DNA of 64,000 nt, from positions 45,404,578 to 45,468,577 of the forward strand of contig CM055895.1 of NCBI GenBank assembly GCA_029582155.1. The letters are read 5' to 3'. This document shows, piece by piece, positions 1 to 57,720 of the stretch. Source of the stretch: Panopea generosa. Lineage: Eukaryota > Mollusca > Bivalvia > Adapedonta > Hiatellidae. The first letter of the stretch is position 1, and each line of letters starts with the position of its first letter. Below the pieces are notes generated by a model that made no database searches, was not told the DNA's origin, and saw only the letters and a list, made by a program, of their open reading frames with translations. The position numbers were made by a program, and so were the translations under genes.

Positions 1-469
1 TATGTGCCGTATAATACAGTATGATTGTAATTTAATTTGATCCCGTTCATGTATACACGCAAGACGCACTTAGTTAAAACATATTTTAGTTCATGAAATC
101 TACAATATTGTTTATAAACATTACAAAGTGAAAAGGGATCAGACATACTTCAGTTGAAAACATGGCAAAACGTAGTGATGATGGTGATTACTCTATTTAT
201 CGTTGCCACCGGTTTCCCGCATAAGTGACGCGTCCAGAAGAGTATAAGTAATTTTAGATTTTTTGGAGGATAGTGCAAAGATACAGAAGACCCTTTGTTC
301 TGTTACATGCCCGGTGTTAAGAACCGATACCATGGGACCTCGATTTTGGTTATAGTCTCATCTAAAAGACTGATAAGTATATTCAAGTTGGAGGAAAGGG
401 AGCCATTAATCAGTTCTAAAACTGTTATTAAGAAAAGTTCAACAAATATATCGCTCTCCTCCCCAGCAG
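1..469. other. Unassigned sequence before the 53-bp array
   Basis: I see no recognisable gene here. By position it should be intron of the exchanger gene that continues at 5022 on the + strand, but no exchanger exon is visible. The short open frame at 295-498 runs into the first, irregular repeat unit and resembles no family I know. Confidence 0.4.
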
Positions 470-3400
470 GCTCGGGAACCAGCTTAAGCCAAACCTAACA
501 AATGTATTACTCTCGTCCACATGTCCAACTTATCGTAAAGTTCAACTTTACAAATGTACCTCTCTCGTCCACAGGAACAAGTTTACCGTCAAGTTTAACC
601 TAACGAATGTACTACTCTCGTCCACATGACCAACTAATCGTAAAGTTCAACTTTACAAATGTACCTCTCTCGTCCACAGGAACCCGCTTACCGTCAAGTT
701 TAACCTAACAAATTTACTACTCTCGTCCACATGACCAACTTATCGTTACGTTCAACTTAACAAATGTACCTCTCTCGTCCACAGGAACTCGCTTACCGTC
801 AAGTTTAACCTAACAAATGTACTACTCTCGTCCACGTGACCAACTTATCGTTACGTTCAACCAAACAAATGTACCACTCTTGTCCACATGAGCCAACTTA
901 CCGTCAAGTTTAACCTAACAAATGTACCTCTCACGTCCACAGGAACCAACTTACTATCAAGTCTAACGTAACAAATGTACCACTCTCGTCCACATGAGCC
1001 AACTTACCGCTAAGTTTAACCTAACAAATGTACCACTTGTCCACAGGAGCAAGCTTAACGTTAAGTTTAACTTAATTTAATGTACCTCTCTTCCACATGA
1101 CCATCTCACCATTAAGTATAACCTAACAAATGTACTACTCTCGTCCACAATAGCCATTTACGGTTAAGTCTAACATAACAAATGTACCTCTTTCCTCCAC
1201 ATGACCAACTTAACGTTAAGTCTAACCTACAAATGTACCAATCTCGTTCACGGGAACCAACTTACCGTCAAGTCTAACCTAACAAATGCACTACTCCCGT
1301 CCACAGGACCAGCTTACAGTTAGGTCTAACCTAACAAATGTACCACTTGTCCACAGGAGCCATCTTAACGTTAAGTATAGTCTAACAAATATACTACTCT
1401 TGTCCACAGGAGCAAACTTACCGTTTATTCTGACTTACAAATGTACCCCTCTCGTCCACAGGAGCAAACTACTTACCGTTAAGTCTAATATAATAAATGT
1501 ACCATTCTCGAACCAGCTTACCACTAAATCTAACCTACCAAATGTTCCACTCTCGTCCACAGCAGCAATTTTACCATTAAATCTAACCTAACAAATGTAC
1601 CACTCTTGTCCACAGGAGTCAACTTACCATTAAGTCTTAACCTAACAAATGTACCACTCTCGTCCACAGCAGCCATTTTACCGTTAAATCTAACCTAACA
1701 AATGGACCACTCTAGTCCACAGGACCCAATTTACCGTTAAGTATAACCTAACAAATGTACCACTCTTGTCCATAGGAACCAACTTACCGTTAAGTCTAAC
1801 CTAACAAATGTACAACTCTCGTTCACGGGAACCAACTTACCGTCAAGTCTAACCTCACAAATGCACCACTTTTGTCCACAGGAACAGCTTACAGTTAAGT
1901 CAAACCTAACAAATATACCACTCGTCCACAGGAACCATCTTAACATTAAGTATAATCTAACAAATATGTTACTCTCGTCAACAGGAGCCAACTTACTGTT
2001 AAGTCTAACTTAGCAATTGCACCACTCTCGTCCATTGGAGCAAACTTACTTTTAAGTCTAACCTAACAAATATGCCACTGTCGTCCACAAGAGCAAACTT
2101 ACCGTCAAGTTTAATCTAACAAATGTTCCTCTCTCATCCACAGGAGCAAACTTACCAGCAAGTATAACCTAACAAATGTACCTCTCTCTTCCACAGGAAC
2201 CAACTTTCCGTTAAGTGTAACCTAATAAATATACCACTTTCGTCCACAGGAGCAAACTTAACGTCAAGTCTAACCTAACAAATGTACCACTCTCGTCCAC
2301 AGGAACCAATTTACCGTTAAGTCTAATATAATAAATGTACCATTCTCGAACCAGCTTACCATTAAATCTAACCTACCAAATGTTTCACTCTCGTCCACAG
2401 CAGCAATTTTACCATTAAGTCTAACCTAACAAATGTACCACTCTTGCCCACAGAAGCCAACTTACCGTTAAGTCTTTACCTAACAAATGTACCCCTCTCG
2501 TCAACATCAGCCATTTTACCGTTAAATCTAACCTAACAAATGGACTACTTTAGTCCGCAGGACCCAATTTACCGTTAAGTATAACCTAACAAATGTACCA
2601 CTCTTGTCCATAGGAACCAACTTACCGTTAAGTCTAACCTAACAAATGAACCACTTTCGTCCACAGGACTAGCTTACAGTTAAGTCTAATCTCACAAATG
2701 CACCACTTTCGTCCACAGGACTAGCTTACAGTTAAGTCTAACCTAAAACATATACCACTCGTCCACAGGAGCCATCTTAACATTAAGTATAATCTAACAA
2801 ATATGCTACTCTCGTCCACAGGAGCAAACTTACTGTCAAGCCTAACCTAACAAAGGTACCACTCTCGTCCACAAAAGCCAACTTACCGTTAAGTCTAACC
2901 TAACAAATGTACCACTCTCGTCCATTGGAGACAACTTACCATTAAGTCTAACCTAACAAATGTACCTCTCTCGTCCACAGGAGCCAACTACTTACCATTA
3001 AGTCTAACCTAACATATGCCACTCTCGACCACAGGAGCCAACTTACCGTTAAGTCTAACCTAACAAATATACCTCTTTCGTCCACAGGAGCAAACTACTT
3101 ACCGTTAAGTCTAACCTAACAAATATGCCACTCTCGACCACAGGAGCCAACTTACCGTTAAGTCTAATTTATCAAATGTAACAATCTCGTCAATTGGAGC
3201 AAACTTACTTTTTAGTCTACCCTAACAAATATGCCACTGTCATCCACAGGAGCAAACTTACCATCAAGTCTAACCTAACAAATGTACCTCTCTCTCTTCC
3301 ACAGGAGCAAACTTACCGTTAAGTCTAACCTAACAAATATGCCACTGTCGTCATCAGGAGCAAACTTTCCGCCAAGTCTAACCTAACAAATGTACCACTC

Positions 3401-5036
3401 TCGTCCACAGGAACCAATTTACCGTTAAGTCTAATATAATAAATGTACCATTCTCGAACCAGCTTACCGCTAAATCTAACCTATCAAATGTTCCACTCTC
3501 GTCCACAGGACCCAATTTACCAGCAAGTCTAACCTAACAAATGTACCACTTTTGTCCACAGAAGCCAACTTTCCATTAAATCTAACCATACAAATGTACC
3601 ACTCTTGTCCACAGGCACCAATTTACCGTAAAATCAAACCAAACAAGTTACCACTCTTGTCCACAGGAGCCAACTAACCATTAAGTCTTACCTAACAAAT
3701 GTACCACTTTCGTCCACAGCAGCCATTTGACCATTAAATCTAGCCTAACAAATGTACCACTCTAGTCCACAGGACCTAATTTACCGTTAAGTATAACCTA
3801 AAAAATGTACCACCATTGCCCATAGGAACAAACTTACTGTTAAGTCTAACCTAACAAATGTACCACACTCGTCCAAAGGACCCAACTTACCGTTAAGTCA
3901 CTTAACAAATGTACTACTCTCGTCCACAGGAACCAACTTACCATTTTGTCTAACCTAACAAATATGCCAATTCGTCCACAGAAGTAAACTTACCATCAAG
4001 TCTAACTTACAAATTTACCTGTCATCCACAGGAACCAACTTACCGTTAAGTCGTATCTAACAAATGTACCACTCTCGTCCACAGGAACCAACTTACCGTT
4101 AAGTCTAACCTAACAAATGTTCCACTCTCGCCCACTAACCAATTTACCGTTAAGTCTAACCTAACAAATGTACCACCTTCGTCCACAGGAACCAACTTAC
4201 CGTTAAGTTCAACCTAACAAATGTACCACTCTCTTCCACAGGAGCCAACTTACCGTAAAGCCTAACCTAACAAATGCACCAGTCTCGTCCACAGGACCAG
4301 CTTACAGTAAAGTCCAACCCAACAAATGCACCACTCTCGTCCACAGGACCTAACTAACCGTTAAGTCTAACCTAACAAATGTACCACTCTCAAACAAGCT
4401 TACTGTTAAATCTGAACTAACAAATGTACCTCTCTTATTCCCAGGAACAAACTAACCGTTAAGGCCAACCTAACATATGTGCCATTCTCGTCTACAGGAG
4501 CCATTTTACTGTTATGTCTAACATAACAAATATACCTCTCTAGTCCACAGGACCAGCTTACAGTTAAGTCCAATCGTACTATAGTACCACTCTCGTCCAC
4601 AGGAGCCAACTTACTGTTACATCCAACTTAACAAATGTACCACTACCGTCCACAGAAGCCGACTTACTGTAAAGTCTTACCTAACAAATGTACCACTCTC
4701 GTCCACAGAAGCCAACATACCGTTAAGTCTAACCTAACAAATGTTCCACTCTTGTCCACAGAAGCCATTTTACCGTTAAGTCTAACCTAACAAATACTCT
4801 TATCCACAGGAATCAGCTTACCGTTAAGTCCAACCTAACAAATGTACCACTCTAGTCCACAGGATCCAACTTACGTTTAAGTCTAACCTAACAAATGTAG
4901 TACTGTCGTCCACAGGAACCAACTTACCGTTAAATCCAACCTCACAAATGTATCACTTTCGTCCACATGACCCAACTTACCGTTAAATCTAAACTAACAA
5001 ATGTACAACTCTCGTCCACAGGAACCAGCTTACCAG
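470..5036 (+). repeat. 53-bp minisatellite carrying a splice-acceptor junction
   Basis: About 86 diverged tandem units with a 53-bp consensus period. In + orientation each unit reads GAACCAACTTACC, then GTTAAGTC, then TAACCTAACAAATG, then TACCACTCTCGTCCACAG. The last unit runs straight into the exchanger exon: its CTCGTCCACAG is the splice acceptor used at 5020-5021, and the next 13 bases (GAACCAGCTTACC) are coding. The first recognisable unit is near 471-483. Units differ by point changes and small indels, so the array is not very recent. Open frames on either strand inside it are by-products of the repeat. Confidence 0.95.
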
Positions 5037-5179
5037 ATACTTTTGCCAGCAAGACGGCTGCCGTGTCTGAGAAAACGGCTGATAATTCGATAGGAAACAT
5101 AACCGGAAGTAATGGTGTCAATGTGTTTTTAGGTCTCGGTCTACCATGGACTATTGCTGCAATATATTGGACTGTTAAG
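5022..5179 (+). CDS. SLC8: Na+/Ca2+ exchanger (SLC8/NCX), penultimate coding exon
   Basis: This exon encodes part of the second alpha-repeat of a plasma-membrane sodium/calcium exchanger, the ion-translocating core. After the last two bases of a Gly codon it reads TSLPDTFASK (the conserved G-T-S-x-P-D-T-F-A-S-K signature), then a short loop, then GSNGVNVFLGLG and a hydrophobic membrane segment ending IYWTVK. The acceptor is CACAG at 5017-5021 and the donor is GTAAGG at 5180. The exon is 158 nt: 2 nt plus 52 codons. It ends in phase 0 and joins in frame to the exon at 5845. Known in the family: the alpha-2 repeat carries residues that bind Na+ and Ca2+. Odd: the acceptor and first 13 coding bases are the terminal unit of the upstream minisatellite. 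The 5' part of the gene lies outside the window. Confidence 0.95.
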
Positions 5180-5445
5180 GTAAGGACATTGGCTCAGTTG
5201 CTATCATTTCCAACGTAACACAAACTTGTTTAATGAACTATAATAGTTGCATTTATTTTGACCCAGTTTTGGTTCATATGGCTTGTTTTTTCCGCATTAG
5301 CTCAGTTCGGCTCATTTGAAGTGATCACAATGTAGTCTATATATAGAACCAGATATCTCCCGACTCAGGTAAATTGACCCCAAATGGAAAAAAAAATAGG
5401 TCTGTTCTACATATGTGTTTGAATATTTAGTGTCATTTTATACCA

Positions 5446-5690
5446 TCGATGGCTAACAGACGATCAGTTAACCTAACCACGCTTTCCTGGAATCTTAGAA
5501 GGTTAACCAGTACCCGAGCATACCCATCTCTGCAAGTAATTGATAAGTTCTCACTTGAAGCCACAAGCGAGACGAATGACGAGACAGTGTCATATATCAA
5601 TCATCACAGAGACTGCATCAGGGCGGGTACCGATATTCGAATTCATGACCACCGGATTGAAAGTAATCGCGCTATCGACAGAGTTAAACA
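5446..5690 (-). repeat. tRNA-derived SINE copy in the exchanger intron
   Basis: Shares its body with copies at 17677-17985 and 56919-57210: the GGCTAACAGAC...CAGTTAACCTAACC segment, the CATCTCTGCAAGTAA segment and the TCATATATCAATCATCAC segment. The tRNA-like head lies at the high-coordinate end and is degraded. It sits inside the 665-bp intron at 5180-5844. The open frame through it (first 132 residues of a 210-residue frame) is not part of the exchanger. Confidence 0.75.
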
Positions 5691-5844
5691 GGACCTGCTT
5701 ATCGGTAATAGAATAGAATTACTTATTAAGTATACAACACCTAGTACCGACCTAAACGGTATTGTTACCGAGCAAAGCCAAGTGTGCTCTAAGATATCAG
5801 GAAACAGAAACAATTATTCAGTTTTACATGTGGTTCTTTTGCAG

Positions 5845-6081
5845 GATAAGACGTTCGAGGTGCCAGCCGGAGATCTTGGTTTCAGTGTTGTGATTTTCAC
5901 CTGCTGTGGCTTGTTGACCATTGGCCTACTGTTGGTACGTCGTTATGTGCCATTATTTGGTGGAGAGTTAGGCGGTCCAAAGGTCCCGAAGATAGCGTGT
6001 GGGGTCGCTCTCATCATACTCTGGGTGTTTTACGTTCTCATGGCTTCATTACAAGTTTACGGCTATATACCAGGATTTTAA
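5845..6081 (+). CDS. SLC8: Na+/Ca2+ exchanger (SLC8/NCX), last coding exon
   Basis: The C-terminal 78 codons plus TAA. The acceptor is TTTTGCAG at 5837-5844. The product begins DKTFEVPAGDLGFS, has a hydrophobic segment, then RRY and the conserved cytoplasmic FGGELGGPKVPK motif, then a last hydrophobic segment and the terminus YGYIPGF. Vertebrate NCX proteins end the same way (GGELGGP, membrane segment, GF at the end), so the terminus is intact. It joins in phase 0 to the exon ending at 5179. No stop or frameshift is seen in either exon, so the gene is probably functional. Alternative starts are irrelevant because this is an internal-to-terminal exon. Confidence 0.95.
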   Translation, partial: DKTFEVPAGDLGFSVVIFTCCGLLTIGLLLVRRYVPLFGGELGGPKVPKIACGVALIILWVFYVLMASLQVYGYIPGF

Positions 6082-6224
6082 AAAAAAAAACATTAATTAT
6101 TGCCAATTTATCAGACACTGTACAAATAGAGACTCAAATATGGTAGTCAATGTTACATTAAATTATATATTATTTAAAAAAACATCTCCTTACTGATTAC
6201 CATTATATTCATAGAGCATGGATA

Positions 6225-6413
6225 CAAGTACATTCAAACCTGTCTTAAGCAGCAGATAAAGGGAAGAGCAAAAATGGCCTTTTAAGACAGATTGATGCTT
6301 AAAACAGGTAGCTGAATTTGCTCTGAAAGCATAGAAATAGAAAATAGCAAATGTGGCTGCTTAAGTCAAGTGGCTGCTTAATACAGGTGACCGCTTGCAT
6401 ATATTTGACTGTA
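6225..6413. mobile_element. Degraded MITE with CAGT-type ends
   Basis: The right end (TATTTGACTGTA at 6402-6413) and inner phrases such as GTGGCTGCTTAATAC resemble the better-preserved element at 47531-47784. The left end, near TACATTCAAACCTG, is weaker. Non-coding. Confidence 0.45.
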
Positions 6414-7357
6414 TATGAAGAGAATATGAAGAGAAAATGGAAATTTAAATTTCGTTAATTTCTATACAAGAAATTTTGTGAGTGTATATATTTTTGTTGG
6501 TCATAATAAGTTTTAACGTAACCATTAAGTTTACGGAAAGTATATATACATGTGATAACATTGATGATAATTCTCATTGTGCGTAGCAAGATATAACAAA
6601 GTACATTTCATTAACAAACCATATATTTTTTACGAAAGATTACTACTTATTTCGGTTAGTGTTATATGCTTCTATGGATCAGTCACTTATGTTGTATGAA
6701 TTAAACAACATAGGTAATTACATATAAAAATGAACAATTTACCATTTAAAACAGTTGTGTAGTTTGTTCCAGGACACGATTAACATGACTGGAAGCATAA
6801 CCTTGTCGCCATTATGGTCATCTTGAACATTATATAGGTCAAACAGCTTCATATATTAATAATGTTAAATTTTAAAATATGATTTAAACAAAAATTGAAT
6901 TTAAGAATGAAGTTACAACATATGAAAAAATACATAACAACAGATTTTGAAATTTTAAGGAATGGAGAAACAGTTATTTATCGTTTTCCCCCCAGTAAAA
7001 CATAATAGTTTAAATTCAGAAGAAAACTGTTAAATAATTAATAATTAGGATTATTGGCCAACATTTTATAAATCAGCTTTACTGATGTACCAAAATAATT
7101 AAACTCAGATAATGGTCAAAAGACTTGTAAAAGAAATTTTAAATGTCCGAATTACTGTATGTTAACCTGCGATCTATATAATGAAGTCACTATAATTAGT
7201 CAATGGACAACAAAATGAAGTTGTCTCCAAACTTTATATTTTTAACATAATCACTTAAAATTTGTATATTTCTCTGTTAGATCTTTAATAGGTTTGTGTT
7301 TATTTCATATGCCTCTGCTGTGTACTAGTACTACAATATGCGCATTCCTTGATATCA
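6414..7357. other. AT-rich sequence, no recognised feature
   Basis: No reading frame, tandem repeat or inverted repeat that I can support. Confidence 0.5.
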
Positions 7358-7860
7358 TTAAAGGCTCATTAAACTTCCGAAACAGTCGTTTTTTTAGTTT
7401 TAATTTAAATCAGTTTTACTCTTCCAGATGATAGAAAATAGGTTTATTTGATCGCTGAGTGACTTTGCAAACGAAAACATAAATATAAACCACATTATTA
7501 GTACATAATTAAGAACGGGTTTTGTTTACGAATTGATGTTCATCTCTTTCCGAATAACACCTTCGGCAAGAGACAGGGAGTTACGAAGCTTGTTCGGAAA
7601 CGCGTCGGTCGGTAATATATGATCACTTCACTTCAGAGAGTCATTACAGAATTACAAAAAGGTAAACTAAAGTTAAAAGCTTGATCCGCTTGTCTAAGAA
7701 ACACATATTTCGATCGAAGTTATTTATTTTCTCGCTTTTTTAAAAACAGTCACTAAGGGGTCTACAGGAATGGTTTTAGCAATACTAAAAACACATTTAA
7801 TTAACATCATTTTTGTTATTATCAAAAAGTGTGCATTTCGGAAGTTTAATGAGGCTTTAA
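7358..7860. mobile_element. 503-bp TTAA-flanked inverted-repeat element
   Basis: The ends are near-perfect inverted repeats: TTAA then AGGCTCATTAAACTTCCG at 7358-7379, and the reverse complement CGGAAGTTTAATGAGGCT then TTAA at 7839-7860. No coding capacity is seen, so this is a non-autonomous element. TTAA target sites are typical of piggyBac-like and Kolobok elements; I cannot tell which. Confidence 0.7.
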
Positions 7861-7977
7861 GGAATTATATAGAGTCTATACACGTCCTTGGTATCATTAA
7901 GGAATTATATAGAGTCTATACACATCCTTGATATCATTAAGGAATAATATACAGTATATACACGTCCTTGATATCAG
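7859..7977. repeat. Three short tandem copies
   Basis: The phrase TTAAGGAATTATATAGAG, followed by TCTATACACGTCCTTG and ATATCA, occurs three times in a row with small changes, starting at the right end of the preceding element. A related CATTCCTTGATATCATTAA lies just left of that element at 7343-7361. Confidence 0.65.
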
Positions 7978-8221
7978 GTAATATTTATTATAATGTAATT
8001 TGGTATCCTGCCAAACTTCACTCCCAGCATTCATTACATACAGAGAATGAAATTGGGAAGGGTACCAGAAATATATCTAATTCAGTGTAGAATATTTCAC
8101 CGGGGTATAGTATTAGATAGTGTCATTTGTAACACATGCTTAGTCATATTTATTAAAATCAATGCGAGTGTTGCTTGTATATACATGTAATATATACATA
8201 TTCATGTGATTCACAGAAGGT

Positions 8222-18239: not shown

Positions 18240-21200
18240 CTGTTTGTAAAATTGGAAAAGAACTTTCAGAGTTAAAAAACTTTTTATTATTTTACTTCAA
18301 GCGAAACAAGTTGCAACAAACCATGTTGAAGTCTTTCTCGGCTTGAAGAATATGCAAAAAAAATTTGTCTTGCTCAATGATACCACACAACACCGTGACC
18401 GAGGATCGAACCCACAACCCTCCAATCATGAGGCCGATGCTCTATCAACTTCCAAAGTGATTTTACTCTACTGATGACAGGTTAATGTACAGCTACTGTG
18501 TGGATCTACACATACTGAATCCCAGAAATAATACAAATATTAGAATGCAAGAAATCATCTTTACTTTTAAAACTGACTTAGCCAGGACTGTACATTTTCA
18601 TCTAATAATATTGCTGTCACGGTGTCCGTAAAATGTTCAATGGTTCTTTAAAATACAAAAGTTACTCTATACATGAGTGTTATAGAAAAATGTAGTTTAA
18701 ATATGATAGCAAATATGCAGTATCAGTGATTTTTTCAAAATTATAACTACGTCTGAGAAAGATATGGCTTATTTAAGAGTGTTTAAGATATCAAATGAAA
18801 TGTCCAATAGGGCCCCCCTAAAAAAGGTTTGTTAGTCATTCCAGACTCATACCATTTAAGTCTCCATAGGTAGGTAATTGTTTGTCTTTTCCAATCAATC
18901 AGAGAACCTTTTGAATCTTTATGAATCAGCAGAGAAAGGACACACAATGACCAAGTACATTTTAAATAAAAAAAACACAACAATGTGGGTGGGCCAGAAG
19001 CAGCTCAAACTGGGTCTCCAAATAAGTAATGTAATTCATTAACTATTTAAATTATGACACAGTGCAATGTTAAAATTGACTGTACATACCTAGTCACATC
19101 AGATCAATTTTTAAATAACACCTCTATAACTTCATATGGAAATAGTATCTCCACAAGTTACTATCTGAAATTTCATCGTTAAAAGATATGTAACTTTTTA
19201 AAAAATTTACTTAATATTATACCAATAAAAGCATAAATTTGAAACGTATATGTACTAGTACCTATGATCACATCTTGTAGATTATTCAATTCATTCTTAA
19301 AATTCTTAATTTAAATTTAATAACATCACTTTCATTTTGTGAAACAAATAATATATTATTTATACAATTGTATTTTCTTACCAATAAGATGTTCTATTCT
19401 TTGGTAAAGTTCAACATCATACTGTGTGACGAATGTGATAGACTTTCCCGACCTCCCCGCTCTAGCCGTCCGTCCAACTCTGTGAATGTAGTCCTTAGAG
19501 TGTGTAGGAATATCTAAATTAATTACAACATCCACATGCGGAATGTCTAAACCTCTACTGGCAACGTCTGTCGCAATTAATATGGATCTATTTTTACTTT
19601 TAAATTTTGTTAGTGCACCTAGTCTTTTAGCTTGAGTCATCTGTCCGTGAAGCGGTATAGCCATTAGACCCAAACTTCTCAACATCAGAGCAACTCTCTG
19701 TGTGTTGGCACATGTTGCACAGAACACCATGAATGAGTTACCGGCCAATTCATTTAATATATAAACCAGATATACATCTTTAAATTTGACAGGAATAAAA
19801 ATGTAGGATTGCTGGAGCTTTTCCACTGTTTGGTATTTTGAATTTACCTCCACCCTCACAGGATTTTTTAATGACGCTCTCTGCAATTTTGCAACCTTCT
19901 TTGTCATTGTTGCCGAGAATAGATACGTGTTTCTCTCTCTGGGTATAACCTAGAATGAAAGATAAAAATAATAAAATCAGTTTATAAAAGTAGACAGTGC
20001 AATCCTAGAAGGTTAATCAATAAACAATACTCGAGCACACTCATCTCTGCAAGTAACTGATAAATTTCCCACTTAAATCATCAGTGAGAGATAAATGACA
20101 ATGAGACGCAGAGTTGTACACATAGCCATCATCACAGAAACTGTAGCTAAACTGGTATTCAAACCAATGATTCCTGGATTGATAGATCTAAAGCAAATAT
20201 TTTTCTGTAGTGAAACAGTTAACACAATAACATAAAGTTACCGTATTTTATTAGCGCATTGCCTATAAAACATGGCTAACAATAAAAGGTATCATCAGCA
20301 GCTATCATAATGATAAACAAATATATTTAGGTTTCTATTTTTTTGTATAAAAACATTACAATATTAATATTTATGTGATTGCTGAAGTGATCTTGAAGTG
20401 AGTATCTTCCTTAACTATTAGATTTATTAAATTGTATTAGCTTATTCTAATTAATTTAGAGTGATTGTGAAGAAGCTGAAAAATGTATATGAAAGCTCTA
20501 GAGTCCACTTTCTGGGCAGGACCAGTATTATAATTTGAGAAGCATCAGATAAAACTGGGATCAAACCCACCAGCTCTAGCATGACCAGACTAAGGATCAA
20601 ACCCACCACCTCTAGCGTGACTAGACCGGGGATCAAACCCACCACCTCTAGCATGACCAGACTAGGGATCAAACCCACCACCTCTAGCGTGACTAGACTG
20701 GGGATCAAACCCACCACCTCTAGCGTGACCAAACTAGGGATCAAACCCACCACCTCTAGCGTGACTAAACCGGGGATCAAACCCACCACCTCTAGCGTGA
20801 CCAGACTAGGGATCAAACCCGCCACTTCTAGCGTGACCAGACTTGAGATCTAACCCACCACCTCTAGCGTGACCAGACTTGGGATCAAACCCACCACCTC
20901 TAGCTTGACCAGACTAAGGATCAAACCCACCACCTCTAGCGTGACCAGACTAGGGATCAAACCCACCACCTCTAGCGTGACTAGACCGGGGATCAAACCC
21001 ACCTACTCTAGCGTGACTAGACCGGAGATCAAACCCACCACCTCTAGACCATCCTTAAATAAAAACTTGTTTGCCGTGCTCCTACCTACTCACTCAATAT
21101 TGCTGCTACCCAAACTTTTTTATTGCTTTTTAAAGCATTCAATTTTTTTCATGATTTTTGTCCATTTTCTTTAAAATGATTATGCAAATTCTGTCAAAAA

Positions 21201-24200
21201 AAAAAATAGCAACCTACCTACCACGGCTAGAATTTAACTTTTTATCCACAGGCTTTTTTTAGCCAGTGCAAATACTTCAACGAACATTTTTGTTTAGTTG
21301 AACTGCAAAATAAAAAAAATTCCAAAGTTTTTAAGGTCTTAAACAGGGATGCATGCCGGTAAACGGGCATATAATGGGCATAATACTCATTAAAAAAAAT
21401 AAATAAAAAAAAATTAGAAAAATTATTAGAAAACCATCAAAATTTTAAAAATGAAAATAAAATACTCCGCTCTCCCCGTTTTCAAGAAACTTTTTTTGTT
21501 TATTTTTCTTGTGTTTCTCGCTCTTATTGTGCGACTTCATGGCTGAATACACACTTTCTTTGAGGCATTGTTATCCGTTTATTAATACCATGTGCTTTTG
21601 ATAAAAAAAATTGGTTTTCCCCAGATGACGTCACTAGTTCAAAACACAAGCATTTGACTCTGTTCTCGGTATTTTGGGGTTGTCAAAAGGGTGTTATCGG
21701 CAATTTTTCTGCACAGGTTATGGCAGAACTATTTATCATTAGTCAACAACACACAATATCTATTTTTAAAATTAGAGCAGGTGTGCACTGGTTCCCAGCA
21801 TGCTGCACTGCACAATACTGCTGGGAAACAGATTTGTCAAATTGAGTCTGTAGTAAAACACGCAGTAAAAAAATAAATTTAAGAGGTTGAAAATCAAGCA
21901 CTTTTCAAATCTGTGTGAACCTTGGACTAGATAACGGGGAACAAATTACAAGCGAATGGAATTGTTTTTCTGTTTGATAAAGACGGTCATAATGACATTA
22001 TAAACCAGAATTACATACCGGAAAAGTGGATATACTGTAAGTTTACTTTCAATCATTGTTCAGATACAACTTTTGATTATCAACTGCATAGAATCTTATA
22101 TTCTTTGGAAATATGAACTCGCATTTTTTTGCCAGTGCTAAGAATTTTAACTCACATTTTCTCAAATCCACTTGCCTTTTAAAACAAGTATGAGAGTGCT
22201 AAATTCAACCCTGCCTACCCACATGAAAAAGTACTGGGTCGGAGCACAGGTAACAAACTTTAATTAAAGAATGGCCCTAGTGTGTATCAGGGCTCGAATT
22301 TAAGCACTCGCCACTCGCAAAATGCGAGCTGTATTTTGAAAATGCAAGTTGAAATTACTTAAGCTGGCATTTTTTTGCGAGTGGATTTTAAGTTGAGAAA
22401 ATTACTAATTATATTCATTTTATTGAATTTTGAAAATAAACAAGTATTATCCAGGTAAAAAAACAAGTTCTTGTCAATTTTTGTTTCTCGCGCCAAATTA
22501 CCCACTATCAGCATGATTTTCAATGCCATGTATTAAACAGTTAATATGAGAAGACTGCGTCCAATTGTTTTTGATCACGAGTTCATTCTGTGAAAATGAA
22601 GTAAAGTTAAAACCCGTCAACAACATAAAGAGTAGACTGCGTTTAGTTTGATCTATCGTGCACTCACTCTATAAAATAAAAGTAAAGTTGAAACCCGTCA
22701 AATTTATTGTTTACATATTTTGTCAGCTGTTAAAATGGCTGATAAAATAACATCTTTTTCTCCATTGAACCGATATCACAATATCACACTGGGCTATAAA
22801 CTTGACAATGACGAAATGGTGTGTCAGTTGTAGAAACCACGTGATCGGCAGATCATCCGTAATAATTTAACTATAGTATTATGATATCACAACATTTACA
22901 CATGTTAAACAGTCCTTGGCTAGATCTAGATCTAATTTTAAAACGAACGGCCATTGGCTATTCTAATTCTTTAAATAGAAATGTGTGTATGTCTCAATCT
23001 CAGTCTCTGTACACTTGTTATTATTGAATCCATGATTTATACTTTTGTTTAGTTAATAGTATTTATTTTTGATATATCATTGTATGCATTTATTTATGGT
23101 AGTATAATAAGTAACAAAGACAACTTTATTTTTTAAGTACTGCTTTGAAATTGAAATACCTTAACATATATAATACCTTGATACCATTGTCTATAAAATA
23201 AATACAAGCTAATATTGCATATTAAATAACATGCGGGCTTTGAAACAATTAATTTTGGGTTAAGGTTTATTTACACATTTAGGACTACATGTTTTGCGAA
23301 AATTGGTTTGGCTAGTTGGTTTCAAATTTGGCCAGTTGAAATTTTAGGCACTAGCCAAAATTGCCAGTGCACAAAAAAGTTAAATTCTAGCCCTGTGTAT
23401 ATGAATGCTCTGGAGTCCACTTCCTTGGCAGGACAAAGATTGAGTATGATGTTTTGAGAAGCATCAGATAAAGCTGGGATCAAACCCACCACCTCTAGCG
23501 TAAATATCGAACATTCAACTACACTGCCACTCTGCTTATTTTCTCTGCTGTTGATCACAGGCCCTATCTTACTTCAGCATTTGGATAGCTATATATTTCC
23601 ATTATTTACTATATATAGCTATCCAAAAACTATAGTAAGATAGGGCCTGTGCTGTGTTGATCACCAAATGTGACATAACTTGTAATTGTGCTCAGTATAG
23701 CTTTCAACAATGTGAGTTATATCAGGCCAACCTGTTCTGGAACTATCCTCTAAATGCTGAGCGCCAAGTGAGGAAGCTTTGAGTAATATTTTCAAATATT
23801 TAGTATGACCAGACCAAGGATCAAACCCATGACCTTCCACATAGATCACCACTGCAGTGTTATGACAAAACCATGAAATTGGCTCTTTTTTTTTTATAAT
23901 CAGTGCTCCAGATAAGCTTTTGGCTAAATGCTTATTTTATTCCCTAAATTAAAATGCAATGCTTAAAATGGAAATTGAAAGAGTATTTTCAAAGTTTACC
24001 TTTACTTCTAACCAGACACTGTTAATGCTTGCTTTAATACAGATTTGAGGTTGCCTTCAATTTCATTTATTATCAGCCATGGGAATTTTACTTTCCATGA
24101 TTCAATGGTATTTGTATTGACCTTGCCTCCCATGTATTTTTCGTTTATTTTTTGTGACTTCGTAATACATGCATCAATAACTCACTTTTGAGGGTATTGT

Positions 24201-27038
24201 TTTTTCTTAAAGAAGTGGAACAAGTTATCAGATTATGATTGGGTTTCTGTTGTTTTTTTCCGTCTTCCGACACCAGAAGCAGACAATGCCATTTATATTA
24301 AATAAATAAGATAAAGTAATCAGCTAAAGTAATGCAGGTTCGTTTATAGCAGGCCTCTTTGAAACGCTTGGAAATACTCAACATGTTCCCATGTGCATCT
24401 CAGTGACAATGATCTATGGGAAATAACTCTTACTGTATATAGTTAGTGTGGTTCCCATATCTACCAATAAACAGTTGATTTTTATTGGTAAAGGTCAGGA
24501 AATCAGACTATGTTTTACATAGCAGTAACTTCCCTTAGATTTGTTTATTTCACAGTGTCTACTTCTGTTGTGTAATCCCCGGTCTTTGGAAATATGATAC
24601 GCACAAGATCGCCAATGAAATGCTTGAATTCAATTGTTTATGCTTACCAGTACGCACATCTATTATTTTATATATTTGTATTTATATTAAATAAATAAGA
24701 TAAAGTAATCAGCTAAAGTAATGCAGGTTCGTTTATAGCAGGCCTCTTTTAAACACTTGGAAATACTCAACATGTTCCCATGTGCATCTCAGTGACAATG
24801 ATCTACGGGAAATAACTCTTACTGTATATAGTTAGTGTGGTTCCCATATCTACCAATAAACAGTTGATTTTTATTGGTAAAGGTCAGGAAATCAGACTAT
24901 GTTTTACATAGCAGTAACTTCCCTTAGATTTGTTTATTTCACAGTGTCTACTTCCATTGTGTAATCCCCGGTCTTTGGAAATATGATACGCACAAGATCG
25001 CCAATGAAATGCTTGAATTCAATTGTTTATGCTTACCAGTACGCACATCTATTATTTTATATATTTGTATTTATATTAAATAAATAAGATAAAGTAATCA
25101 GCTAAAGTAATGCAGGTTCGTTTATAGCAGGCCTCTTTTAAACACTTGGAAATACTCAACATGTTCCCATGTGCATCTCAGTGACAATGATCTACGGGAA
25201 ATAACTCTTACTGTATATAGTTAGTGTGGTTCCCATATCTACCAATAAACAGTTGATTTTTATTGGTAAAGGTCAGGAAATCAGACTATGTTTTACATAG
25301 CAGTTATTTTCCTTAGATTTGTTTATTTCACAGTGTCTACTTCCATTGTGTAATCCCCGGTCTTTGGAAATATGATACGCACAAAACGCCAATGAAATGC
25401 TTGAATTCAATTGTTTATGCTTACCAGTACGCACATCTATTATTTTATATATTTGTATTTATATTAAATAAATAAGATAAAGTAATCAGCTAAAGTAATG
25501 CAGGTTCGTTTATAGCAGGCCTCTTTTAAACACTTGGAAATACTCAACATGTTCCCATGTGCATCTCAGTGACAATGATCTACGGGAAATAACTCTTACT
25601 GTATATAGTTAGTGTGGTTCCCATATCTACCAATAAACAGTTGATTTTTATTGGTAAAGGTCAGGAAATCAGACTATGTTTTACATAGCAGTAACTTCCC
25701 TTAGATTTGTTTATTTCACAGCGTCTACTTCTGTTGTGTAATCCCCGGTCTTTGGAAATATGATACGCACAAGATCGCCAATGAAATGCTTGAATTCAAT
25801 TGTTTATGCTTACCAGTGCGCACATCTATTATTTTCAATGCTTTTTTGTCAATTTCAATGCTTATTTACGCAAGTACGCACCTTATCTGGAGCACTGTAT
25901 AATTATGCAAAATCATTTTCTTTTAACTTCAATGTCAAATCAGTAATAACTAATATATACAACTACCACAGTGTTGACTGGTTAATGGTGTAACCCCACC
26001 ACTGATTTTTGTTCTTTATTCTATAGTAAATAATAAAAGTTTGAAGGCTTGTCATTCATAGAGGGTCCCAAATGAAAGAAGTGAAACCTACATTTTACTG
26101 TTTGTCAACCTCTGCACTATCAAAATATGATGAGAAAAGTAGGGGTCATGTGTCATATAAGAGATTTTTTTCTGCTCAGTTTGTACACTGGTGACAAAGT
26201 GAAAGCAGACTTCCGAAATCATGAATTCATACCCCAATTTCCAAGCATCATTTTTTTTTTCTAAATTCTTAATTTAAACATGACAATGCTATCAAAATGT
26301 TCAAAATACATCAATAATGCCATTCAAATAAAAAAAATGAGCATTAAAAATAGGAAAATGCATTTTTAAAGAAGAAGAATTGAGGATTATTTACAACTGC
26401 CATTATGCGACTACCCCACGGAAGCACTTCCTTTTTGCAATGGTGGCACTATGCCTAATACAGACCTTCAAAATTTTGTCGACTTCAGCCTCGAAGTCCA
26501 TATTTAGTATTCTGTCAGCTTCATCCATTACCAAGTATTTCAATGACCTCAAATTGAAACCTTTTGTATTTTCGAGGTGGTCAACAAGTCTGCCAGGTGT
26601 TGCTATAACTATATGTGGTTTCTTTGCCAACATCAACGCCTGTGTCATGATATCAATACCACCGACAATCACGCAACATTTCACGCCAATTCCTGATCCA
26701 AGCGCCTCGAATTGTTCTGATATTTGAAAAGCAAGTTCCCTCGTCGGTGTCAGGATTAACGCATATAACCTCTGGGGATTGTTTAACAGACTTTGAAGGA
26801 TTGGTAACGCAAAAGCGCCTGTTTTCCCTGACCCTGTTTCTGCCAAACCGATTACGTCGTTTCCAGCAAGCCCGACTGGAATTGCTTCCCTTTGAATCTT
26901 TGATGGGGTTTTCCATTTTAAACCTTCACATGCTTCACATAATACATGCTCTACTCCTAGAGATTGAAATGTTACATTATCTTCACTAGGTTCGTCATTT
27001 TCACGTGGTGAAATGTTGTTGTCTTCGAAGTCAGCCAT
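18034..27038 (-). CDS. DDX47: DDX47 (Rrp3-type) DEAD-box RNA helicase, complete gene
   Basis: ATP-dependent RNA helicase. In the family this is a nucleolar protein of 18S rRNA maturation and the small-subunit processome. The coding exons are 26466-27038, 19382-19949 and 18034-18239, giving 448 residues (the human protein is about 455). Motifs in order: Q motif with FQSLGV and a helix ending KIQREAIP (24-53), AETGSGKT (66-73), PTRELA (98-103), TPGR (147-150), DEAD (172-175), SAT (203-205), [10 protein letters not shown] (317-326) and [11 protein letters not shown] (347-357), then a Lys-rich tail that looks like a nucleolar signal. No lesion is seen. The start chosen is MADFEDN at 27038; an in-frame ATG at 27056 would add six residues. 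The intron donors are GTCTGT (weak) and GTAAGA. Intron 2 (19950-26465) is unusually large and full of repeats. Confidence 0.97.
18365..18450 (-). repeat. tRNA-like SINE head in DDX47 intron 1
   Basis: On the - strand it reads AGTTGATAGAGCATCGG, CATGATTGGAGGG and GTGGGTTCGATCCTCGGTC, a clear B box with a tRNA-like spacing. It lacks an aminoacyl-stem match and is followed by SINE-like sequence, so I call a SINE and not a tRNA gene. A weaker relative lies near 41565-41612. Confidence 0.6.
19382..19949 (-). CDS. DDX47: DDX47 coding exon 2 (helicase core, second half)
   Basis: The acceptor CATTCTAG is followed by GTTATACCC (VIPRERN). The exon encodes residues 192-380, motifs III to VI. The donor is GTAAGA at 19381. 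The exon leaves one base, completed by GT of the next exon to give Gly381. Confidence 0.96.
20004..20190 (-). repeat. SINE fragment in DDX47 intron 2
   Basis: Same body as the SINE at 17677-17985 (CTCGAGCACACTCATCTCTG, CAAGTAACTGATAA), with a degraded head ending near 20180. Confidence 0.7.
20485..20580 (-). repeat. SINE body next to the 36-bp array
   Basis: Matches the SINE at 23400-23545 over CTCTAGAGTCCACTTTCTGG, GAGAAGCATCAGATAAA and CTGGGATCAAACCCACCA. It reads on the - strand and merges into the 36-bp tandem array at its tRNA-like B-box region. Confidence 0.7.
20575..21052 (-). repeat. 36-bp tandem array of SINE B-box segments
   Basis: About 13 units of 36 bp, on + CTAGCGTGACCAGACTAGGG followed by ATCAAACCCACCACCT. 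The inverse of the unit contains GGTTTGATCCC, a Pol III B-box-like motif. Because 36 is a multiple of 3, open frames appear on both strands with a 12-residue period; these are not proteins. Units are 85-100% alike by eye. Confidence 0.92.
21217..22218. mobile_element. Non-autonomous element with 5-bp duplication (copy a)
   Basis: The left end is CACGGCTAGAATTTAAC at 21222. The right end is AAATTCAACCCTG, ending at 22213, the inverse of CAGGGTTGAATTT. CCTAC flanks both ends (21217-21221 and 22214-22218). About 990 bp; no coding sequence recognised. The CAGGG-type ends suggest a hAT-like element, although most hAT elements make 8-bp duplications. Confidence 0.65.
22283..23400. mobile_element. 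Non-autonomous element with 5-bp duplication (copy b)
   Basis: The left end is CAGGGCTCGAATTTAA at 22288. The right end is TTAAATTCTAGCCCTG, ending at 23395. TGTAT flanks both ends (22283-22287 and 23396-23400). The right end of this copy resembles the left end of copy a (GCTAGAATTTAACTTTTT and GCCAGTGCA in both), so they belong to one family in opposite orientation. 1,108 bp, no coding sequence recognised. Confidence 0.7.
23400..23545 (-). repeat. SINE with tRNA-Leu/Ser-like head
   Basis: On the - strand: AGCAGAGTGGCAGTGTAG (A-box-like), GGTGGGTTTGATCCCAGC (B box), then a body ending GTGGACTCCAGAGCATTC. It abuts the right target duplication of the preceding element. Confidence 0.65.
23556..23651. 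mobile_element. Hairpin MITE, about 96 bp
   Basis: Near-perfect palindrome: CACAGGCCCTATCTTACT and TTTGGATAGCTATATA on the left, TATATAGCTATCCAAA and AGTAAGATAGGGCCTGTG on the right, with a loop of about 16 bases. It is flanked by CTGCTGTTGAT and CTGTGTTGAT, a possible target duplication. Confidence 0.65.
23895..25903. mobile_element. 2.0-kb element with 16-bp TIRs and TATAAT duplication
   Basis: CAGTGCTCCAGATAAG at 23901-23916 and its exact inverse CTTATCTGGAGCACTG at 25882-25897. TATAAT lies on both sides (23895-23900, 25898-25903). There is no transposase; nearly all of the interior is a four-copy 389-bp tandem repeat. It sits in DDX47 intron 2. The CAGTG ends suggest a hAT-type element; the 6-bp duplication is read directly. 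Confidence 0.75.
24292..25837. repeat. Four tandem copies of a 389-bp unit
   Basis: Units start at 24292, 24681, 25070 and 25458, each with TTTATATTAAATAAATAAGA. The copies look about 98% identical by eye, differing at scattered bases such as TTTGAAACG/TTTTAAACA. Each unit includes an internal inverted repeat, TACCAATAAA...TTTATTGGTA. The high identity implies recent expansion or homogenisation. Confidence 0.95.
26466..27038 (-). CDS. DDX47: DDX47 coding exon 1 (N-terminus)
   Basis: Encodes residues 1-191, through the Q motif, Walker A, PTRELA, TPGR and DEAD, ending EAEVDKILK. The frame stays open past the donor to 26403 but loses family similarity there, so the exon is ended at AAG|GTCTGT. 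Confidence 0.95.
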
Positions 27039-27068
27039 CTTGATTTTGTGACGCACGTTGTTTAGGTA

Positions 27069-27103
27069 AGCGGAAGGGGAATCGGTAGAGCCCCCTACGT
27101 CAT
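27069..27103 (-). promoter_or_regulatory. Possible DDX47 core promoter (ETS-like and CRE-like sites)
   Basis: Within 70 bp upstream of the DDX47 start there is an ETS-like GCGGAAGG (27070-27077 on +) and a CRE-like TACGTCA (27096-27102 on +; TGACGTA on the gene strand). Such sites are common in promoters of housekeeping and ribosome-biogenesis genes. There is no TATA box at a useful distance. This rests on motif matching alone. Confidence 0.35.
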
Positions 27104-27189
27104 CAGCTCATTTAAATATATGTAAATGAAGATATAAAGCTATCACGAATAAAACGTTAATTATATAGCTTTGTAATTTTGGCAAATCC

Positions 27190-29791
27190 CTAGTTGAATT
27201 ATGCAGCTGTAATAATATGCATATTTTAAATGGTAGACTTTTTGGTGATGTAAAAGGTAATTTTACATGTATAGTTAATAATGGAGCTAGTGTAGTTGAC
27301 TACAATATTGTATCAAGCGATCTTTTTACAAATATTTCTGATTTTAACGTTGAAAATCGTGACGATTCGGTACATTTTCCAATTAAATGTCAGTTGAAGT
27401 TTACTACAAAAAGGGATATTTCAAATGGTCCTGAGATCAATATACCTACTGTAAATATGAAAGAATATGTAAAATACAGATGGCAAGATAGGTACCGAGA
27501 TACTTTTATAGAAAAATTCCGAGAACTTTTACGCACATCTCGTGATGATATAATGAATTATGTAAACTCTGATATAAATAAAGCAGTAATTATGCTGACA
27601 GACACATATAAATTTGCAGCTGAATCAATGCGTATTAAAAATAAACATTATAACCATAACAGTAACAAACATCCTCCATGGTGGGATGCAGATTGCGAAA
27701 CACTTAAACAAAGAAAATATTCATTACTGCGAAAATTCCGAACAACAAGTTTAGAAAATGATCTTATTACGTACAAGAATGAACGAAATGCCTTTAAAAA
27801 TATTTGTAAATTAAAAAAACGACAATATGAAACAAAAAAACGACAAGATTTAATAGATTCGCGTACCGATCCCTCTTCTTTTTGGAAAAAAATTAAAGAA
27901 TCAAAACAGTTCTCTCATCAAAAGTATAATACATCGAATGAAGAATGGATTGACTATTTCCGTAAACTTTTATACATTGAAGACAACTCGAATATTGAAC
28001 TTGATTTACAAGATGATAATGCTTTGATAAATATTGACATCACCGCAGACGTGCTAAATGACCCGATTACAGACGCAGACATTATTTCAGGAATCCCGAG
28101 ATTGAAATCCGGTAAGAGTTCAGGTCCTTCTGGAATCGGAGCAGACTTTTTTAAAAATATGGAAACTGAAGTTGTCCCATATCTAAATACAATATTTAAC
28201 AAAATCTTAGATAGCGGTACCTATCCAGATGCTTGGTCAGAAAGTATTCTATGCCCAATACACAAATCCGGATTAAAAGACGACGCAAATAATTACAGAG
28301 GAATTTCGCTAATAAGCATTATGTACAAAATATTTTCTAATATTGCTACGCAAAGAATTTACAGTTGGGCTGAGCGTGAACATAAGATTGATGAGGCGCA
28401 AGCAGGCTTCAGATCTGGTTATTCTGCAATAGATAACTTCTCCTTACAAGCACTTGTACAGAAATATATTTCAAAGAAAGGAGGGCGTTTTTACTGTCTT
28501 TTCGTAGACTTTAGCAAAGCGTTTGACACTTTAATTCATAATAAATTATTTAATAGTATTGCGCGTAAAGGCATTCATGGTAAAATTTTATCTGTATTTA
28601 AATCTATGTATAGTAAAACTAAATGTTCCATACGTACGCCAAATGGTATTACTGATCCATTCCCATGTAATATTGGAACGAGACAGGGGGACATAAGTAG
28701 TCCTATTTTATTTTCACTTTATATCAATGACCTTTGTACATTATTTAGAGAACGCTGTGGTACTGGAATATTTGTCTCTAACGATATACCTGATATCATG
28801 TATTTATTATTTGCTGATGATGTAACAAGCGTAGCTGAGACTGCGTCAAAGCTACAGATTCAACTAAATGTATTAAATGATTTTTGAATTTCTGCAGGCA
28901 TGAACATTAATCTTAAGAAAACTGAAATTATTGTATTTAGAAATGGTGGCAGACTTCGTTTATATGAAAATTGGTCGTACAGAGGAAATCTCATAAAAAC
29001 AACGTCGTATAAATTCATGGGCATTCTGTTGACACCCAAACTGTCGTGGACTTCCGCCAAAAGCAAACTTGCGACACAGGCCAAAAAAGCTATATATTCT
29101 ATTCGAAATTATCAAAGGCCATTTGGACGATTTTTACATAATGAACTATTTAAATTGTTTGATTCAATGGTAAAACCTATATTATGTTATGCATCAGAGA
29201 TATGGGGTTACGAATATTCAAGTGCAATTGAGTCAGTTCAGGCTGATTTTTGTAAATACTTCTTAGGTGTTAATAGTTCTGTAAATAATAGTGTAGCGCT
29301 CGGCGAGTGCGGAAGGCTTCCTTTGTGCGTTACTTATCATACAAATTGCATTAAGTACTGGTGTAAAATAATACATATGCCAAATCACCGATATCCAAAA
29401 CATTGTTATAGAATGCTTAAAGATTTAGATGATGTTGGAAGAAAAACTTGGGCTTCAAGTGTTAAGAAATTATTGTTTCGATATGGATTCGGGTATGTTT
29501 GGATTTCACATGAAGTGGGGGATATTAATATGTTTATTTTAGCATTTAAACAACGACTATCAGATTGCATGACCAAGTACTGGCATGGTAGTATTGCAGA
29601 ATCCACACGTTGTGACACTTATAAGTACTTCAAAACTTTACTAAATCCAGAAAAGTATCTTTGTATTGAAATTCCCTTTTTACATAAAAAATCTCTTGCC
29701 CGTTTTCGATGTTCTAGTCACAAGCTCAAAATAGAAACTGGTCGTCACGAAAATATTGAAAGGCAAGACCGAAAGTGTACATATTGTTATA
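27190..29791 (+). pseudogene. LINE ORF2 fragment: endonuclease end and reverse transcriptase
   Basis: The remnant of the AP-endonuclease reads LNGRLFGD...VVDYNIVSS...FPIKC. After a linker the RT domain follows: LKSGKSSGPSGIGADF, NNYRGISLIS, DFSKAFDTL, GTRQGDISSPILFSLYIND and the catalytic LLFADDV (FADD at 28810-28821). The frame stops at TGA 28885-28887 (after LNVLNDF) and then continues in the same frame as ISAGMNINLKKTEIIVFRNG, so this is one nonsense change where relatives have a Cys-like codon. The C-terminal part continues past 35993 (HANINVIEDEYHVFFLCP) to TAA at 36211-36213. The clade is not assigned; it looks jockey-superfamily-like. Confidence 0.9.
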
Positions 29792-54479: not shown

Positions 54480-57400
54480 ACAAAGTTGAAACTAATAAGT
54501 GATATCATTTATTCAAGTAGTTGAAATCAGTTATTCATTTCAGATAGTTGATATCACTTATTCATTTAAAAAAAGGTGATATCACTTATTCAAATGTGTG
54601 ATAAGAACTATATGTGATTTGACTCATTTAATTGTTTCAAATAGGTGATATCACCTATGTAAAAAGGTTGATATAACTTATAAATTATACCAATTATTTT
54701 TTGAATGATCAGGTGATATCACATATTTAATACGTGATATCATATAATTTCCTATTTGAAACTAATGTATGGGGTGCCGTTTTACTATCTAACTTCAATG
54801 AGTGATATCATTCATTTGAATAGGTGATGTCATTCATTCGTATAGGTGATATCACTTAATTGAATAAGTGATATCACTTATTTGAATAGGTGATATCACT
54901 TATTCAAATGAAGGTATCACCTATTCAAATAAGTGATATTTAATAAGGGATATCATCTAATTTGTTTCAAATAGGTGATATGACTTATTCAATTAAGTGA
55001 TATCACTTATACCAACAGTTGATATCCCTTATTCGAGTGAGTGATATCACCTATTTGAATGAGTGATATCACCTATTCGAATTAGTGATATTTAATAAGT
55101 GATGTCATCTAATTTCCTATTTGAAACTAATGTATGGGATGCTGTTCTACTATTTTACCTCGATAAGTGGTATCACTCAATTGAATAGATGATATCACTC
55201 ATTTGAATAAGTGATATCACTTATTTGATCGAGTGATATCACCTTATCGAAATTAATAAGTGATATCACTTATTCATATGAGTGATTTTACCTATTCGAG
55301 TGATATCACTTATGAGAGTAAGTGATATCACTTATTCGTTTCATATAGGTTATATGACTTTTTCGATAAAGTGATATCACTCAGTTGAGATGATATCACT
55401 AATTTGAATAGGTGATATCACTTATTCGATTGAGTGATATCATCTATTCAATTGAGTGAAATCACCTTTTCAACTGAGTGATACCTATTATTCGAATAGG
55501 TGATATCACTAAATCGAATGAGTGATATCATCTATTAAAATTATTTATATCACCTATTCGAATAAGTGATATTTTATAAGGGATATCATCTTATTTCCTA
55601 TTTGAAACTAATATATGGGGTGCCGTTTTACTATTTAATCTCGATAAGTGGTATCACTCAATTGAATAGATGATATCAATCATTTGAATAAGTGATGTCA
55701 CTTATTGGATTGAGTGATATCACCTATTCGAAAATAATAAGTGATATCACTTTTTCGAATGGGTGATATCACCTATTCCAGTAAATTATATCACTTATTC
55801 GAGTAAGTGATATCACTAATTTGTTTCAAATAGGTTATATGACATATTCCATTAATTGTTCTATTCAATTGAATGAAATCACCTTTACAAATGAGTGATA
55901 TCACTTATTTGAATAGGTGATACTGCTTATTTGAATAGATGATATCACCTATTCAAATTAGTGATATCACCTATTCGCATAAGTGATATTTAAAAAGAGA
56001 TATCATCTTATTTCCTATTTGAAACTGATGTGTGGGGTGCCGTTTTACTATTCAACCTCGATAAGTGGTATCACTTATTCGAATAGGTGATATCACTCAT
56101 TTGAAAAGATGATATCACTCAATCGAATATCACTTATACAAATAAGTGATATTACCTATTCGAGTAAGTGATATCACTTATTCGAGTAAGTGATATCACT
56201 AATTCGTTTCAAATAGGTAAAGTGACATCACTCAACCAAATAGATGATATCACTCATTCAAATAAGTGATTTCACTTATTGGATTGAGTGATATCTATTC
56301 AATTGAGTGATATCACTTATTTGAATAGGTGATATCACTTAATAGAAAGAGTGATATCACCTATTCGAATAAGTGATATTCAATAAGGGATATCATTTAA
56401 TTTCCTATGGATTGCCGTTTTACTATTTTAACTCGATAAGTGGTATCACTCAACTGAATAGAATAGATTTGAAATTAATTAGTGATATCACTTATTCGAA
56501 TAAGTGATATCACTAATTCGTTGCAAATAGGTGATATGCCTAATTTGATTAAGTGATATCACTCAATTGAATAGATGATATCAATCATTTGAATAAGTGA
56601 TATCACTTATTCCATTGATTGATATCACCTATTTGAATGAGTGATATCGCTTATTCCAAACAAATCAGTGATATAACTTATTCGAATAGGTGATATTGCT
56701 TATTTGATTTATCAAGCAAGAAAAAACAGATGGATCCCTGCTTAAATGATTCAGCCGATATATGTTATCCAGCATTGGATATATGATACTCAGCCCCAAA
56801 AATGGTAAAACGGCACCCCATTCTAATGATGATATTACTTATTCGAATTGTTGGTATCACTTACTTTTTTAAATAGGTGGTAAGCCTGTAACTTATTCCA
56901 ACTTATTCCAATACTTAAGCTGGGTGCGATTATCTCAGTTGGTTATGCATCTGACGATCAATCCAAGGGTCGTGAGTTCGAATCCCCGCCCGGCAACAGT
57001 CTCCATGGTGATTTATACACAACATTGTGTCTGATTATCATTTGTCTTTCACCACGTATTCAAGTGGGAAGGTTATCAGTTACTTGCAGAGATGGTGTGT
57101 GCTCGAGTACTGGTTAACCTTTCAGGATCCCAGGAAATAGTGGTTAGGTTAGCCCTTGATGCCATAAAATGACGCTAAATATTCAATCAATCAATTCAAT
57201 CAATTAGATATTAATATCACATATTTGAATAAATAATATAATCTATTTGAAATAAATGAATGAGTGATATCAACTATTTGGATAAGTGATATCACTCATT
57301 TTTCTAAAAGGTGATTATCACTTATTCAAAATGGGTGATGATTAAAATAATCATTTATTTGAATAAGTGATATCATTTATATGGTTAAAAAGTAAAATGG

Positions 57401-57720
57401 TACCTCACATGTATCACCTATTTGAATAATTAATATCACTAATTCATTGATTTAGGTTATATCACTTATTTGAATAGGTGATATCAGTTATTATGGTTTA
57501 ATAGTAAAATTATACCCAATAGTTATCACTTTTTGAATAAGTGATATCACTTATTCACTGATTTAGGTTACATTTCTTATTCATTTATGTGATATCAGTT
57601 GTTTTAAAAAAAGGTTATATCACCTATTCGAATATGTCATATAATTTTTAAAATAGGTGATATCACTTATTTCAATAGGTGACATCACCTATTTGATTGG
57701 GATATATTAAAATATTTCCC
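54480..57720. repeat. Array of GTGATATCAC palindromes
   Basis: About 3.2 kb made of the 10-bp palindrome GTGATATCAC, or close variants, repeated dozens of times and separated by 10-14 bp of TTATTCGAATA / CTATTTGAATG type, itself close to palindromic. A longer block with TTTCCTATTTGAAACTAATG and GGGGTGCCGTTTTACTAT recurs near 54746, 55122, 55598, 56014 and 56400, giving a higher-order period of roughly 380-480 bp. An inverse copy of that block lies at 56800-56825. No coding sequence. A SINE interrupts it at 56919-57210. Confidence 0.95.
56919..57210 (+). repeat. Full-length tRNA-derived SINE inside the palindrome array
   Basis: The head has GATTATCTCAGTTGGTTA (A box) and GAGTTCGAATCCCCGCCC (B box). 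The body has TTGCAGAGATGGTGTGTGCT and GTGGTTAGGTTAGCC, and the tail is ATTCAATCAATCAATTCAAT. This is the best-preserved copy in the window and a good reference for the family. Confidence 0.9.

Follow-up and report, generated by a model that had tools for sequence, protein, structure and literature searches.

An intron of a Na/Ca exchanger (NCX) gene in Panopea generosa is largely filled by a 53-bp tandem array that runs over the acceptor into the following exon, which raises the question of whether the repeat was built from the splice junction or the start of the exon was built from the repeat. The stretch of DNA analysed, 64,000 nucleotides long and referred to here as the window, holds two exons that encode the C-terminus of an NCX-type exchanger (Table 1). 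When L009:9607 is joined to 5022 and 5179 to 5845, one open frame runs from QLIFAF to the stop via VALG-TSLPDTFASK. The product carries the Na_Ca_ex domain (Pfam match 2.5e-16) and an NCX1-like C-terminus (human NCX1 match 4.7e-37), which identifies it as an NCX Na/Ca exchanger, and we take the TSLPDTFASK exon to be the alpha-2 repeat.

Table 1. Coordinates of the exchanger exons, the array and the intron that bears it (window positions unless prefixed)
Feature	Position	Strand	Basis and remarks
53-bp array, 87 units	484..5035	+	TRF, wrap-around alignment; final 14 bases are exon
3' splice site of last unit	4994..5021	+	CTAAC branch-point-like motif, pyrimidine tract, CAG
Ragged leftmost acceptor-like unit remnant	430..483	+	Wrap-around alignment; 476-486 is GAACCAGCTTA, as in the exon
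Array-bearing intron, 3' part	1..5021	+	Phase 1; donor L009:9608; total 5414 nt
Dispersed ~220-bp repeat within intron	176..395	.	1688 first-look candidates in genome, 40 scored
Preceding exon	L009:9433-9607		Outside window, ends 393 bases before window start
NCX exon TSLPDTFASK...	5022..5179	+	158 nt; first 13 bases within repeat unit; donor GT at 5180
Last NCX coding exon	5845..6081	+	237 nt including stop

The array was called by TRF at 484-5034 (period 53, 87.0 copies, 77% matches, score 4811), and wrap-around alignment divides 430-5035 into 88 segments, among which segment 0 (430-483) is ragged and segments 1-87 are the units. Each unit spans the splice boundary, with 39 intronic and 13-14 exonic bases, and a typical one consists of a CTAAC branch-point-like motif, a pyrimidine tract, CAG and the first 13 bases of the exon; YTNAY is found at the aligned place in 68 of the 87 units. 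The last unit (4983-5035) shares 48 of its 53 bases with the TRF-phased consensus, and the first 13 exon bases agree with it at 12 (chance of at least 12/13, about 6e-7). The original prediction, that the unit covers the NCX acceptor plus the first 13 coding bases of the exon and that the final unit is the functional junction itself, is borne out here, since the frame is restored at 5021|5022 and this acceptor, judged by sequence, lies inside the last unit. Homology extends to the left of 484, where 301-484 reaches a local score of 32 (best of 200 shuffles, 29), while 301-440 alone scores 19, inside its shuffle range. A genome search with 159 bases (three units) gave 39 matches, all within C2:45405061-45409612 and forming one candidate region. 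No second locus for the unit was found in the 1.47-Gb genome by this search, which skips very common words, and the many loci expected of a dispersed satellite were likewise not seen with it.

A minisatellite built on a splice donor was reportedly described in human IFI6 (6-16) by Turri in 1995. In the accessible text of a later source, the units of this minisatellite provide splice sites (PMC4526556); downstream units are used there as donors, whereas the NCX array sits on the acceptor side. Closer counterparts come from amphioxus, in which minisatellite-like duplications of intron-exon boundaries are described for globin genes, the BflGb6 repeat including an intron's 3' end together with the 5' part of exon 2, and the Adh3 case is cited under the name "mirages" (excerpted text of PMC3087553). 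PGBD5 and TnC were added as further lancelet cases (PMC3902484, likewise in excerpt). The original prediction knew of no minisatellite seeded on a conserved coding splice junction, and these two sources contradict that claim of novelty.

As described in those excerpts, the amphioxus mirages of Adh3, the globins BflGb6 and BflGb9, and TnC resemble the NCX array in being tandem repeats across an intron/exon boundary, with the authentic junction beside its copies and with many, not all, of the copies keeping splice signals. In the NCX gene, too, the unit lies over a splice boundary and the terminal unit is the junction. The lancelet PGBD5 repeats of 60 and 108 bp are likewise tandem copies lying on splice sites or overlapping them, but they include an imperfect triplication (3 x 108 bp) and the copies are few (excerpt of PMC3902484). 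Adh3 mirage units measure 10-72 bp, compared with 53 bp here, and two BflGb6 haplotypes carry 3 and 6 units of 150-160 bp, compared with 87 units of 53 bp. On the accessible descriptions, the NCX array belongs to the known mirage kind and is longer than the globin cases (3-6 units), from which it differs in residing in an NCX gene and in an intron that is missing from the paralogs. No mirage outside lancelets was found in the open literature, as judged mostly from titles and the opening of abstracts. Intron 3 of an abalone kinase gene contains a minisatellite of 27 bp, and the accessible text mentions no boundary-spanning repeat; in the available parts of a Conus paper and an hTERT paper the relevant terms occur in reference lists or in descriptions of ordinary gene structure.

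The array is very probably a mirage-type minisatellite that was seeded on the acceptor of the exchanger exon. A short stretch spanning this acceptor, with some 40 intronic and 13 exonic bases, would have undergone tandem duplication, and unequal exchange or slippage may have raised the count to 87 units. Part of this growth would have been by dimers at the left end and by duplication of larger blocks; a dimeric subarray is found at that end, copies of a 16-unit block are present (units 20 and 36 are identical, as are 25 and 41), and the left array edge retains GAACCAGCTTA. The copy next to the exon would have been kept intact because it is the sole copy translated, and the 86 upstream copies would be intron and decay as if neutral. 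Mean identity is 80% among the units and 82% to the junction unit, and identity to the junction unit shows no gradient along the array (rho 0.10, p 0.38). The exon-like subfamily, defined by G at column 45, is not more diverse than the rest (0.167 vs 0.185; 403 of 500 permutations gave at least the observed difference), so unit comparison alone does not prove a root. A at column 41 is linked to G at column 45 (14/15 vs 25/71, Fisher 3e-5, a value inflated by the block duplications). The original prediction had the junction amplified about 86 times leftward and proposed to align each unit to it and build a unit tree. The array of about 87 copies on the junction stands, but the leftward direction does not, because the alignment gave no signal of the junction as root, no gradient with distance and a negative diversity test. 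The pattern is consistent with expansion and later mutation with local turnover, and shows no direction.

The upstream copies retain much of the acceptor. Of the 87 units, 64 still have AG at the aligned place and 23 lack it there, and CAG|G is retained in 50 of 87. The retention of AG (0.736) is close to that of 52 dinucleotides on average (0.755), 23 of them being retained less well, and this average behaviour gives no hint of selection on AG in either direction. Among the 63 upstream units with AG, 58 have at least the pyrimidine count of the junction, and 36 match or exceed the junction on three simple measures (CTRAY motif, pyrimidine count and CAG|G). With the reading phase given by the upstream exon, all 63 run into a stop before the donor of the NCX exon. 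The spliceosome is predicted to use the last acceptor (5021|5022), since upstream use would give premature stops. The last copy presumably wins through exon definition. A mini-intron reading of ACC|GTTAAGT, with GTTAAG at 35 of 85 unit joints, was judged fortuitous.

Against the seeding of the array on the junction stands the opposite order, in which an intronic minisatellite came first and spread rightward over the exon start, leaving the 13 exon bases array-derived. The commonest unit reads AAC opposite the AGC of the exon, the exon resembles one member of a minority subfamily, and unit comparison yields no root; on the junction-first order, the founder unit must then have changed early. However, three paralogs in the same genome (L016, L017 and L018) encode GTSMPD, GTSMPD and GTSLPD uninterrupted, with neither intron nor array, and human NCX1 reads TSVPD at the site, so that nearly the same residues are encoded without any array. 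Moreover, the commonest unit would encode Asn, while these paralogs, human NCX1 and the window exon have Ser. Array-first growth is thus extremely unlikely. As the coding sequence is common to the paralogs and NCX1 while the array appears private, the junction would be the source of the exon-like bases. That the exon is older than the array is well supported by this comparison of sequences, and with the residues kept in the paralogs and NCX1 and the unit at one locus only, the earlier view that the coding sense of the exon predates the array holds. A dispersed 60-bp minisatellite might instead have inserted, brought a ready-made acceptor (TACCACT..CCACAG) and been re-amplified with 13 exon bases. 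Such an array lies at 62676-64000 on the minus strand; its unit, TACCACTGTCACCC(A/T)CAGTGAACACAACTG..., recurs across the genome at numerous loci and bears a weak resemblance to the 53-bp unit as far as CAG. Dimers of the two units align with a score of 42, which was attained by 10 among 20000 shuffled units and by none among 500 in a preceding run, but this corresponds to about 0.01 after correction, because the window allows for some 26 unit-strand comparisons. With at most one mismatch, the shared motif, a pattern chosen after the fact, has 526 genome hits against 7 control hits; 100 places were listed, and most among these are of the 60-bp type, while two hits on C1 (L091 and L092) sit in a different repeat of about 70-bp type and a third (L093) is not clearly an array. 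In contrast, a profile of the 53-bp units matches the 60-bp array with an E of only 0.26; the match covers 18 model positions and ends at CAG, and an unrelated locus scores no worse (E 0.22). The best E of a reversed-profile control is 1.1, and at E up to 10 there are 26 hits against 9 for the control, the 26 including some loci fetched for GAACCARCTTACC. The homology of the two units was considered weak, and derivation from the 60-bp family is very unlikely.

The history of the intron itself, within the junction-seeded reading, is less certain. Four other family members in the same genome, namely L016, L017, L018 and an NCX1-type gene on C4, have no intron at this exact position, VALG|TS; L016 and L017 nevertheless share both flanking intron positions with the window gene. 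In a small protein tree (6 rows, none of its forks attaining both support marks) the nearest neighbour of the window gene is L016, followed by L017. A single gain requires fewer steps than two or three losses, and parsimony suggests that the intron was gained recently on the branch of the window gene. The array accounts for 4538 nt (484-5021) of the 5414 nt of the intron, or 84%, and on the basis that so much of a paralog-private intron is junction-derived repeat, it is tentatively conceivable, if rather doubtful, that the intron was gained after the exchanger duplications and that a mirage of acceptor plus exon was linked to its birth or establishment. In the available text on amphioxus, boundary repeats were indeed proposed to give rise to new introns (PMC3087553). 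The reverse history, an ancestral array-bearing intron lost in the paralogs with the array alone new, draws on the C4 gene, whose phase-1 intron only 15 nt downstream (donor L089, acceptor L013) implies that the family may long have had an intron in this region, and on the clade of three paralogs having a support of 80/79 only. It is unlikely, given the absence of the intron from all three of these paralogs, the flanking introns retained in L016 and L017, and the number of losses needed. The upstream acceptors could also be functional decoys that, as competing 3' splice sites, divert transcripts to stop-containing forms, with copy number tuning exchanger output. The persistence of 63 such acceptors, 36 of them with CTRAY, enough pyrimidines and CAG|G and every one leading to a stop, would suit this role; AG is retained neither clearly better nor clearly worse than other dinucleotides, however, and the amphioxus boundary repeats do not seem to disturb regular splicing (accessible text of PMC3087553), which makes the role highly improbable.

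Apart from the array, the intron contains dispersed repeats. The repeat at 176-395 has at least 40 other matches in the genome, with 75-82% identity among the matches listed. Another dispersed repeat, which we take to resemble a reversed tRNA-like SINE, begins a few nucleotides past the NCX donor and covers intron nt 4-156, by eye perhaps to about 240 (L009:9611-9763, perhaps to about 9850), with 91 first-look candidates, 40 of them scored. A possible target duplication of 11-12 bp, GTAATTTAAGAT / GTAATTGAGAT at intron positions 1-12 and 263-273, suggests that this SINE-like repeat landed in an existing intron, and gain of the intron by SINE insertion was set aside on this ground. An origin of the intron 5' end, or of the intronic part of the unit, as an eroded exon copy was also rejected, as the scores were at or below those of shuffles.

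Tandem arrays are dense in the regions sampled. Counting arrays with a period of at least 10 and at least 3 copies, their share is 25.3% in the window, 13.6% in the 30 kb upstream and 7.1% in 30 kinase loci, and at such density some seeds over splice junctions are expected. The kinase loci were cut out from 30 of 136 kinase matches, most of them near-complete kinase domains in one frame, and gave 78 TRF rows of period at least 10, of which 17 lie in an open frame or no more than 60 bp from one. In two of these loci, L041 and L057, the arrays were inspected by eye and neither crosses a junction. The L041 array (reverse complement, 2174-3632; 32 bp, 48 copies) starts just after a kinase exon donor, within about 20 nt of it, and its unit resembles, by eye, the intron side of that donor. 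An 8-kb array with periods of 26, 52 and 78 bp (L090, reverse complement, 1-8075) was found upstream of the NCX1-type exons on C4 and is probably intronic.

Elsewhere in the window, 19359-27107 on the minus strand carries exons of a DEAD-box helicase gene (Pfam DEAD, Helicase_C), presumably DDX47-like, adjoined by a reverse-transcriptase ORF (RVT_1) at 27169-28884, and 54797-57707 contains densely packed repeats, about 22 bp long, with the palindrome-like TGATATCACTTATTC as their basis. In the genome, GAACCARCTTACC occurs in pairs about 4.4-4.5 kb apart (C1:57877138/57881593, C4:40186745/40191221, C6:24529955/24534356 and C18:3609900/3614353), a spacing that might be that expected of two retroelement ends. 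Matched positions extend to 47 Mb on C18 and 38 Mb on C19 but to just a few Mb on C21 to C28, which suggests about 19-20 chromosomes.

What is new at this locus is an intron that is missing at its exact position from four family members and that consists, over 84% of its length, of a mirage array. The array likely extends the mirage phenomenon to an animal group other than lancelets, with copies far above those of the globin cases as described in the accessible sources. It also provides a natural test of 3' splice-site choice, in which 63 similar upstream acceptors face one that must win. Should the intron prove private to the window paralog, the locus would also have a bearing on intron gain.
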